Shown piece by piece: positions 60,676 through 63,960 of a stretch of 64,000 nt of DNA (its first letter is position 1; every line of letters starts with the position of its first letter). The stretch comes from Pseudohongiella spirulinae (GTDB taxonomy: Bacteria > Pseudomonadota > Gammaproteobacteria > Pseudomonadales > Pseudohongiellaceae), in contig NZ_CP013189.1 of NCBI RefSeq assembly GCF_001444425.1, positions 1,736,001 to 1,800,000 of the forward strand. Direction: 5' to 3'. Under the pieces are notes generated by a model, which saw nothing but the letters and a program-made list of their open reading frames with translations, did no database searches and had not been told where the DNA came from. Position numbers and translations under genes: made by a program.

Positions 60676-61344
60676 TCAGACTCTCTCTTGAACTTTATTG
60701 ATAACAATATCAAGCACCTGAGAGATACTCAGACAAGTCGTATCAAGACTGTACGCATCCTCAGCCGGCCGTAATGGTGCCACGGCTCGCTGGGTATCGC
60801 GCTCGTCACGCGCCCGGATATCCGCCAAAAGGTCGCCGATCTTAACATCAATACCCTTTGCAATCAACTGCTTATAGCGCCGTTCTGCACGCTCTTCAGC
60901 AGAGGCTGTCAGAAAAATTTTGACCGGGGCTTCAGGGAAAACTACCGTCCCCATATCACGACCATCAGCCACCAGTCCGGGAGGCTGACAAAAGTCCCGC
61001 TGGCGCTGCAGCAGCGCCTCGCGAACGGCCGGAATGGCGGCAACCAGCGATGCATGGCTGCCGGCCTGCTCTGTGCGAATAAACGCAGACACCTCTTCGC
61101 CGTCGCACCAGACACTATCGTCATTGCCCGTGCCAAAACGAATATCCAACTGTCGCGCCAACGCTGCCAGCGCTCGCTCATCATCCAGCGCAATCTGCCG
61201 ACGTTGCGCCGCCATCGCCAACAGACGATACAATGCACCACTGTCAAGGTAATGCCAGCCCAGCCGTTGTGCGGCAAGACGACTGATAGTGCCTTTGCCT
61301 GCGCCACCGGGCCCGTCAATAGTCACGACCGGAGTATCTGCCAT
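60676..61344 (-). CDS. cmk: Cytidylate kinase
   Basis: 222 residues. The P-loop is [20 protein letters not shown], followed by [11 protein letters not shown] and the NMP-binding [20 protein letters not shown] region, then [19 protein letters not shown]. It phosphorylates CMP and dCMP. Its ATG shares a base with the tyrA-aroA stop (TAATG). The order aroA-cmk-rpsA is standard in proteobacteria. Confidence 0.97.
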
Positions 61345-63125
61345 TACACCAGTTCCTTGATTTTAAAACCCAGACTGCCTAGTGTGACCAATAAACCGGG
61401 ATACTGAGCGGCCAGGTCTCCGACAGCAGTCAGAGTCATCTCATGGGCTCCCGTTGCCACCAGAGCCGCCGTCAGTAGAGCCAGCTCGGTATCGTGATCG
61501 CAGTCAATTTGATGCACATCTGCTGCCCAGAGTCCGCTTTTCACCTGCACGGTTGTCGAATCTGCCAGTGTGATCTGCAACCCCGAGTCTCGCCAGGGGC
61601 GGAGCCGATGCCATAAAGCGGCGCACTCTGAAGTCTCTAACGCAATTTCAAGTTCCTGATCTCCGGTCAGCCCCCATGCAACCAGTGCCAGACTCTCCGC
61701 AAGCGACAGACTGCCGACCGGCACATCCAGTCGCGTGCCACCGGTCATGGTCGTCACCAGTGCCGCGATCTGCAGGTCTTTGTTATCCTGCACCGACAGG
61801 TTCAGGCCAAGTTCAGACCATAGCGCGGGCAAACCGCTCAGCGCCGCCTCGTCACCCAGCCCGTCACGAATAACAACAGAAGACGCTGGCAGGCAGGAAG
61901 CCGCCAGACCGATGACCGCGATGAGCAGCGGGTCAGCGCCCAGCGACAGATTCACTGTCTTCTGATCGCCAGCGAAAACCAATAGCTCACCCTGCTCAGG
62001 GCCACTGATTGGCGTGCCGGCAGCATTCAACTTTTGCACAAGCTGCAATGATTGCCTGTCCTCCGGAAAGCCACGGATCAAGGTTTTTTGCCCCGTAGCC
62101 AGAGCACCCAGCAGGGCTGCACGGGCACCTTCTGCCCCGGATGACAGCCAACAATCACCCTTTATACAGACTGCCGGCGTCACGCGAAGTGGCCGCGATG
62201 ACTCAGGCTCAGGGACATCCAGAGCAGACTGACCGGCCCTGAATCGACGGATAAAATCGTCCCTCACTGATTTGGCGCGCGCGAACCCGGTCTGCAGCGC
62301 AACCCCATCGGCCTGCAGCAAAAGACGCTTCATGTCAGTCAACGAGTTCATGTAGGCATCCAGCACAGACACCGTAGCCTCCCGGTTGGCCAGAAATATA
62401 TCGCGCCACATCACCGGATCGCTTGACGCGATGCGACTGAAATCGGCGAAGCCACCAGCCGCATAGTCAAACACCTGCTGCGGGCGATCGGGTTCTCCAA
62501 CCTTATCGACAAGCGTGTTAACCAGAGCAAACGCAAGTAAATGCGGCAAATGGCTGGTACCGGCAAGGATCCTGTCGTGACGTCCGGCACTCATGGCGTG
62601 TACATCAGCCCCAAGACACTGCCAGAGCTGCATTACCGTCTGAACTGCCACTGTCTGGTTTTCTGCCACCGGCGTCAGAATGACTTTGCGCTGCTGATAG
62701 AGATCGGCTCTGGAGGCCTGATAACCACTCTGTTCCGATCCGGCAATGGGATGCCCGGCAACAAAGCGTGAGCTGGCTGATCCCAGGATGCGGCGCGCAT
62801 CGGCGAGCACGCTGCCTTTGACACTTGCCGCGTCAGTTACGATCGCATCGGCACGCAGCAGATCGCTGATCTGCTCCAGCACACGGGCAACAGTCAGCGT
62901 TGGTGTTGCCAGCAGAATAATATCGGCATCCGGCACCAATGTATCTGGCGTAGTGGCATAACCATCGATAACCCCATCCAGCAAAGCCGTCTGTAAAGGC
63001 CCCTCGTCGCGGCCACAGGCCAGGATGCGTCGACAGTGTCGACCGGCCGCCAGTCCACGCGCCACAGAGCCGCCAATCAGCCCCAGACCAATTATAAGAA
63101 CTGTTTTATTTTCAAGAAGATGCAC
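61344..63125 (-). CDS. tyrA: Prephenate dehydrogenase fused to a shortened, degenerate EPSP synthase-like domain
   Basis: 593 residues from GTG 63125. Residues about 1-298 are a normal TyrA: NAD(P) loop [44 protein letters not shown] and [15 protein letters not shown]. Residues about 310-593 align over both ends with AroA, but the segment is ~280 residues instead of ~430. The expected Lys of the GDKS motif is Cys (IKGDCWLSS), the SGTxxR substrate Arg motif is unseen, and the C-terminal Lys is replaced ([11 protein letters not shown]). It probably keeps prephenate dehydrogenase activity only. Pseudomonas has a full TyrA-AroA fusion of about 750 residues here. It overlaps the pheA end by 14 bases. 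The start is uncertain: GTG 63161 is an alternative. Confidence 0.85.
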
Positions 63126-63960
63126 GAGTATACGAACCCAGGTTCTTGATTTTAACAACACGCTCGGTCAACTGGCTGAAGACCTGTTTAACTGCTGCAT
63201 CGTCGCTGTGCCCCTCGAAATCTATAAAGAATACATAGGACCACATATCATCGCGGGCAGGTCGGGTCTCAAGCCGGGTCAGGCTGACCTGAAATCGGTC
63301 AAACGGCTCAAGCAGGCGAAACAGGGAGCCAGGTTTGTTTTCGGCGTACACGATGATAGAGGTCTTGTCGGCACCGCTCGGCTGCGTATTACGCACACGT
63401 GCAAGCGTCAGAAAACGGGTGGTGTTATTGCGCCTGTCCTGAATGCCCGCCACCACGACGTTCAAGCCATACAATTCGGCAGCTTTCAAACCTGCAATGG
63501 CGGCTGTTGACGGATCTTCGGCAGCAAGTCTTGCCGCCTCAGCGTTGCTGCTCACATCCAGCAATTCAATATCGGGGTAGTGGCTACGCAACCACAAGCG
63601 GCACTGGCCCAGTGATTGCTTGTGGGAAACAATGCGGCGCACATCGACCATATCAGCGCCGGGCTGCAGCAAAAGGTTGTGCTCTATGGGAATAAACACC
63701 TCACCAACGATGCTGAGTGAGGTATCGATAAGGCAGTCCAGGGTCGTATTGACTGCTCCCTCCGTGGAGTTCTCTACCGGCACCACTCCGAAATCTGACT
63801 GCCCGGCTTCCACATCCAGAAATACGTCATCAATGCTGGCAACACTGTGATAATCCAGAGTACGGCCGTCCTCACTGAACGCGCGATCGACGGCAGCGTG
63901 CGAAAACGTTCCGGGCGGCCCGAGGAAGGCCACCCTGATAACATCATCAGTCTTCTGCAT
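63112..63960 (-). CDS. pheA: Prephenate dehydratase (no chorismate mutase domain seen)
   Basis: Converts prephenate to phenylpyruvate for phenylalanine synthesis. From ATG 63960 there are 282 residues: a PDT domain (RVAFLGPPGTFSHAAV, PVENSTEGAVNTTLD, catalytic NNTTRFLTL) and a C-terminal ACT domain (ENKPGSLFRLLEPF, LETRPARDDMWSYVF) for Phe feedback. The enteric and pseudomonad P-protein has an N-terminal chorismate mutase; none is present here, although the frame is open to the window edge and upstream ATGs at 63993/63990 are possible. hisC, which sits between pheA and tyrA in Pseudomonas, is missing. Confidence 0.9.
   Translation of the reverse strand: MQKTDDVIRVAFLGPPGTFSHAAVDRAFSEDGRTLDYHSVASIDDVFLDVEAGQSDFGVVPVENSTEGAVNTTLDCLIDTSLSIVGEVFIPIEHNLLLQPGADMVDVRRIVSHKQSLGQCRLWLRSHYPDIELLDVSSNAEAARLAAEDPSTAAIAGLKAAELYGLNVVVAGIQDRRNNTTRFLTLARVRNTQPSGADKTSIIVYAENKPGSLFRLLEPFDRFQVSLTRLETRPARDDMWSYVFFIDFEGHSDDAAVKQVFSQLTERVVKIKNLGSYTRASS

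Follow-up and report, generated by a model that had tools for sequence, protein, structure and literature searches.

The window analysed here is a stretch of 64,000 nucleotides of Pseudohongiella spirulinae. Near its end, an open reading frame on the minus strand (61344-63161, 605 aa as listed) encodes the prephenate dehydrogenase TyrA followed by a C-terminal tail. The likelier start of TyrA, as placed by homologues, is the GTG of residue 13 at position 63125. Pfam recognises both PDH_N (3.9e-30) and PDH_C (1.1e-23) in this frame, and H137, S142, H204, H207 and R253, which we take to be the catalytic residues, show no variation across 12 proteins of Pseudohongiella. Judged by these domains and invariant residues, the prephenate dehydrogenase half is intact. 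The features of the locus are collected in Table 1, in which the assignment of units A to D to EPSP-synthase domains I and II is our assumption.

Table 1. Positions of the TyrA part, the tail and the neighbouring gene within the window.
Feature	Positions	Strand	Basis
TyrA (prephenate dehydrogenase) catalytic and dimerisation domains, ORF residues 13-300	62262..63125	-	PDH_N, PDH_C and invariant residues
EPSP-synthase domain predicted to be catalytically dead, with four beta-alpha-beta-alpha-beta-beta units	61347..62189	-	hhalign, AlphaFold2, Foldseek, site residues
Strand region at the N-terminus of the dead domain (tail residues 26-34)	62163..62189	-	Secondary structure of the model
Unit A, presumably the sole remaining repeat of domain II; GDKSISHR lost	61968..62162	-	Alignments and model
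Junction left by the deletion; domain II lacks its units 2 and 3 here	61956..61967	-	Alignments
Unit B, presumably first repeat of domain I	61761..61955	-	Model and alignment
Unit C, presumably second repeat of domain I; IDEFP and VKESDR lost	61542..61736	-	Alignments and model
Unit D, presumably last repeat; GDHR lost, YPGL and LGF kept	61353..61523	-	Alignments and model
cmk	60676..61344	-	ATG overlaps TAA of the tyrA ORF by one base (TAATG)

We compared the tail with EPSP synthases both as a single sequence and as a member of its group. In the window tail, Pfam gave no EPSP_synthase match at E <= 1, and a single-sequence search of the PDB placed an A. baumannii EPSP synthase at the top with only 0.028. 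Among 13 Pseudohongiella tails, six match PF00275 (best 7e-5). The profile built from the 13 tails retrieves the Acinetobacter baumannii EPSP synthase 5buf at 7.5e-19, and hhalign of 14 tails against 15 intact AroA domains of the same family gives a probability of 99.4 and an E value of 1e-21, in an alignment that covers both ends and leaves a single large gap inside. The HMM comparison that the original prediction had proposed thus fails for the window tail alone but succeeds with the tail profiles. As a group, and as far as profiles and the predicted fold can tell, the tails clearly belong with EPSP synthase, having ancestry and fold in common with PF00275. A scan of genome contigs with the tail as the only query found no relative; the 28 loci of the relatives were obtained through full-length alignment instead.

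The tail has lost a defined part of this domain and nearly all of its active site. It comprises 306 aa, compared with about 460 in an intact domain, and what is absent is a single block made up of the second and third units of domain II, 144 residues long in the intact reference. Two of the six repeats are therefore gone and domain II is reduced to a third, so that the tail, with four units, does not have the six-repeat, two-domain architecture that closes over an active site; in some longer tails, unrelated residues stand at the place of the missing block. In joint alignments, the motifs GDKSISHR, IDEFP, VKESDR and GDHR are replaced in the tails, and GNSGTAMR, SAQVKS and RDHTE are deleted. 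We scored 18 positions, chosen by us from the sites of the CP4 EPSP synthase (CP4 numbering) and presumed to be its substrate sites. The window tail keeps 3 of the 18 and the 14 tails between 1 and 3, as against 17 or 18 in 15 intact sequences of the family. The original prediction, which had read an AroA-like C-terminal domain lacking about 150 internal residues and having its PEP- and shikimate-3-phosphate-binding residues replaced, is borne out on both counts. Consistently, NF011381, the model for bifunctional TyrA-AroA, aligns with residues 7-569 of the window protein at 365.7 bits and does not reach its cut-off of 902, which an intact fusion of the family, that of genome G007, passes with 1022 bits. 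On these sequence grounds, the tail is almost certainly not an EPSP synthase.

AlphaFold2 predicts that the tail nevertheless folds. The best model of the tail only has a pLDDT of 85.8 and a pTM of 0.84 (five models, pLDDT 69.9-85.8); the alignment supplied consisted of 13 tails without any intact AroA, and no template was used. Foldseek with this model returned the MurA 5ujs first (3.0e-13), followed by the EPSP synthases 3roi (9.6e-13, TM 0.72 by query), 2gg6 and 5bs5. The boundary proposed at 62204 lies close to where the predicted fold begins. Since AlphaFold2 may have recognised the family, the fold stands as a prediction and not as independent proof. Members of the EPSP synthase / MurA family normally have six units, as opposed to the four of the tail. 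A full-length model was poor, with low confidence in the TyrA dimerisation domain, and gave no placement of the tail on TyrA.

We then searched for the enzyme that could supply EPSP synthase activity. The expectation of a second full-length aroA elsewhere proved correct: the closed genome of P. spirulinae carries an intact standalone aroA at C1:712299-713534 (465.7 bits with PF00275), besides which the only further PF00275 match in that genome is murA. This standalone protein scores 619 bits against 1g6s, which we take to be the E. coli EPSP synthase, and 126 against the CP4 EPSP synthase 2gg4, whereas an intact domain from one of the family's fusions has the opposite preference (150 and 386 bits). 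The standalone and the fused AroA are accordingly of different types, for which we use the names class I (E. coli type) and class II (CP4-like). In a survey of 99 genomes of the family, and among the matches listed, class I is present in 14 of 15 genomes of Pseudohongiella (genus g1) and in 13 of 14 genomes of its sister genus g5; the two without a class I match among those listed, G066 (g1) and G065 (g5), are 72% and 76% complete. The same 14 Pseudohongiella genomes have both a read tail and a class I match among those listed. A tree of 53 class I proteins, midpoint-rooted and with rows from within the order only, has g1 and g5 sharing one side of a branch whose support is 99/96; g1 is not one clade within this group, and the proteins of G007 and of f27, another family of the order, lie outside it. 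Because the spread is patchy and the type different, the class I gene would have arrived by transfer.

The locus itself was followed across the family. The gene order pheA-tyrA-(aroA)-cmk-rpsA is seen in the loci read, as far as each extends, and the genera differ in how the genes are joined. The tyrA and aroA genes are separate in g2 (6/6 loci read) and g8 (5/5). In g3, a PheA-TyrA fusion lies upstream of a separate aroA (5/5 loci read, L039-L043). An intact TyrA-AroA fusion is found in g4 (5/5 loci read, from about fifty genomes) and in one locus each of g6 and g7. TyrA with the dead domain occurs in 14 of 15 Pseudohongiella genomes, that of the window included, with no match in the fifteenth (G066, the 72% complete genome). 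Finally, in g5 the AroA domain is gone and Cmk is fused directly to TyrA in 13/13 readable cases, that is in 13 of 14 genomes (loci L017-L020, L022-L030, L054, L055, L069 and L070), while the fourteenth, G055, gave no match at the locus. The g7 genome, G007, has a class I aroA in addition to its intact fused domain, its fourth PF00275 match being a murA-like fragment; as an intermediate of the same event it is a weak candidate, with a bin that is 7% contaminated and a class I copy outside the g1 and g5 group.

The tail is open in all 14 readable Pseudohongiella genomes. Internal stops had been flagged for G028, G045, G053 and G011; we judged them to lie upstream of the start and outside the tail, since each ORF is open from before the TyrA domain through the end of the tail. 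As open-frame lengths may include read-through, which was seen in g2, stop-to-stop ORFs were used instead. A cmk start overlapping the end of the frame is possible in 8 of the 12 other Pseudohongiella genomes, and none is found among the listed candidates in the remaining 4.

In addition, we estimated the selection acting on the tail. In seven close pairs, which exclude the protein of the window, tail dN/dS by the Nei-Gojobori method is 0.17-0.37, with bootstrap upper bounds of 0.24-0.70, all below 1; the TyrA part gives 0.04-0.10 in the six pairs that could be estimated, so that the tail changes at several times the rate of TyrA. The nearest pairs of the window protein give tail values of 0.35 (with G028, dS about 2.2) and 0.48 (with G045, dS about 1.6). 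Among the 30 of 91 pairs listed, values climb to 0.55 at greater distance, where dS is mostly saturated. All these values are rough, since dS is unequal between the TyrA part and the tail in some pairs (0.42 and 1.19 in G028/G045; 0.48 and 0.10 in G041/G060, with G060 read from two contigs), which suggests recombination or binning artefacts in these two. Loss of the catalytic residues and purifying selection on the sequence, two marks of a pseudoenzyme, are both seen in the tail, and a third, the kept fold, is confidently predicted.

The pattern of conservation indicates what this selection may act on. Outside the TyrA helix, 14 tail positions do not vary across the 13 rows, and every one of them is G, P, A or L. 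No polar residue is invariant, and only two aspartates and one serine (D111, D258 and S128) reach 90%. Conservation of units A and D minus that of units B and C is 0.088 (0.032-0.147) in Pseudohongiella and 0.208 (0.131-0.280) in f27, as compared with -0.037 (-0.115 to 0.039) for 15 intact domains and, for the five of g4, 0.013 (-0.073 to 0.095), a contrast that was picked after the per-unit values had been seen and that therefore serves as a lead. In the intact domains unit A is already the most conserved, by a small margin, and unit D the least, so the shift is mainly one of D relative to B and C. We read this pattern as a probable constraint on folding and on packing by the TyrA linker, not as a binding site.

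To place these results in a wider frame, we tallied class I and class II matches in 194 sampled genomes of the order. Class I aroA is present in 35 of them, in 16 of 96 genera (E <= 1e-60). Of the 159 genomes that lack class I, 151 match an intact class II query at E <= 1e-78, and a strong match occurs in only 8 of the 35 genomes that have class I (G105, G154, G199 and G270 at 1e-147 or better; G135 and three of genus g53 at 1e-116 to 1e-101). These tallies were made by eye on genomes that are not phylogenetically independent, and a strong match need not mean that the enzyme is active. The 8 remaining genomes without class I are G167, G159 and G192, the latter two with no match, and five of family f40 (G137, G173, G201, G251 and G272). 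The f40 genomes, with no class I match at E <= 1e-60 and a best class II match of only 1e-21 to 1e-24, perhaps use a third type of EPSP synthase. Outside the Pseudohongiella family, the TyrA frame of the 30 class I genomes is of fusion length (740-811 aa) in 15 and measures 296-358 aa in the other 15. The latter are too short for a fusion, and the domain has probably been lost in these other families as well.

Among the fusion-length frames we found a second lineage in which the domain appears dead. In genus g34 of family f27, each of the seven genomes sampled has a TyrA fusion of full length (L193-L199) that scores only 132-162 bits with PF00275 and keeps 5-9 of the 18 site residues. The dN/dS of the domain could be estimated in 18 of 21 pairs and ranges there from 0.10 to 0.28, with lower bounds mostly at zero because dS is saturated. 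Since f27 is a different family that has the domain at full length, and since close relatives of Pseudohongiella are intact, we take the two losses to be independent. The other fusions keep 13-15 of 18 (three of g53), 12 of 18 (G135) and 17-18 of 18 (four others); those of g53 and G135 (L200-L203), which stand beside a class I aroA, are possibly in early decay. One of the f27 fusions with a dead domain, L194:1364-3604, scores 852 bits with NF011381, so near the cut-off that its relatives may carry the bifunctional annotation. Fusions with a dead domain can receive the name 'bifunctional' from partial similarity.

We consider it probable that the tail is a pseudoenzyme domain kept mainly as a structural module of TyrA. 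The common ancestor of g1 and g5 would have acquired a class I aroA, the class I gene would have taken over and the fused half would then have lost its function. The non-catalytic tail would probably pack on TyrA through its N-terminal strand and units A and D, near the linker and the chain ends, and would aid the stability, the solubility or the dimer of TyrA. Such a role entails selection on folding and not on catalysis. What counts against it is that relatives manage without the domain, namely g5 with its TyrA-Cmk fusion and the 15 of 30 class I genomes with short TyrA frames. The faster change of the tail than of TyrA, the higher dN/dS at greater distance, the slight lead of unit A already in intact domains, the spread of pLDDT over the five models and the poor full-length model weigh against it too. 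Regulatory domains are known on TyrA, and the dead domain could instead have been recruited to control TyrA by sensing a partner or a metabolite such as shikimate 3-phosphate, PEP or tyrosine. Purifying selection without catalysis would agree with such a recruitment, which Song et al. 2005 (PMC1173090) proposed for a remnant in P. syringae. We nonetheless find it unlikely, since the tail has no invariant polar residue, with just the two aspartates and the serine above the 90% level, and its substrate sites are replaced or deleted. The original prediction had envisaged a leftover that became structural or regulatory for TyrA; the idea is plausible, and its structural half fits the conservation pattern better than its regulatory half.

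Selection could also act on the frame and not on the domain, if stops or frameshifts in the tail were polar on the overlapping cmk-rpsA, so that the tail would stay open while decaying. The overlap of the tyrA stop with the cmk start in the window, possible in most of the other genomes of the genus, and the loss of the domain in g5, which left TyrA and Cmk fused in frame, speak for this; a dN/dS of 0.17-0.37 with upper bounds below 1, the predicted fold, the non-random conservation by unit and the 4 of 12 genomes without an overlapping cmk start among the listed candidates speak against it, and we hold it to be quite unlikely. A passenger in slow neutral decay, caught mid-way, would explain rates far above those of TyrA and the total loss in g5 and probably in other families, but it is very unlikely in view of frames that are open in every readable genome of the genus and of a close-pair dN/dS well under 1. 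That the tail is still an enzyme, as a minimal EPSP synthase or with a new activity of the enolpyruvyl type, has nothing in its favour except the family fold retained by prediction; with catalytic motifs replaced or deleted, one domain cut to a third and an intact class I aroA in the genome, this is scarcely credible. Hence, of the 'dead remnant' originally proposed, 'dead' is right by sequence, with 3 of 18 sites kept, but 'remnant' is too weak a word for a domain that is open in 14 of 15 genomes, has dN/dS bounds below 1 and is predicted to fold: it is most likely a selected pseudoenzyme domain with a structural role. A bolder proposal, to which we give little credence, is that whenever a class I aroA freed a fused EPSP-synthase domain from its task, the dead domain was converted, repeatedly and independently, into one kind of accessory module for TyrA, which might be a new type of metabolite sensor for tyrosine synthesis.

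These genomes provide a natural series for what becomes of half of a fusion enzyme once its job is taken over, from both copies intact, through a few substitutions, to a domain that is dead at full length, then dead and shortened, and finally removed with the formation of a new fusion. Because conservation is distributed in a similar way in the two dead lineages, the question of folding or regulation versus catalysis becomes directly testable.

The window protein shares its domain order, as well as its operon place in pheA-tyrA.aroA-cmk-rpsA, with TyrA-AroA fusions (NF011381 / PRK14806), and its tail shares the beta-alpha-beta-alpha-beta-beta units of the EPSP synthase / MurA fold (PF00275), without the active site. 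The fungal quinate-pathway repressor is a transcription regulator built from dead AROM domains. It likewise keeps dead domains of the aromatic pathway, but it regulates transcription, whereas the Pseudohongiella tail is part of a metabolic enzyme. The nearest precedent is P. syringae, in which, according to Song et al. 2005 (PMC1173090), about 200 residues are deleted in the fused AroF (AroA) domain of TyrA and the standalone gene, Agrobacterium-like, was probably acquired by transfer. The paper calls that deletion recent and places it N-terminally, once C-terminally; going by this description, it may overlap the block lost in Pseudohongiella. A truncated fused domain beside a standalone gene of foreign affinity is thus common to both, and the kind of event is already known. 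In the literature searched, whose coverage leaves out most subscription journals, we found no description of the Pseudohongiella-wide and f27 cases. The genus-wide spread, the evidence for selection with the predicted fold, the second dead lineage with graded intermediates, and the g5 loss with its TyrA-Cmk fusion seem to be new. The P. syringae case is one of a single species with an Agrobacterium-like gene, whereas that of Pseudohongiella is genus-wide, with an E. coli-like gene, a predicted fold and selection on the domain.
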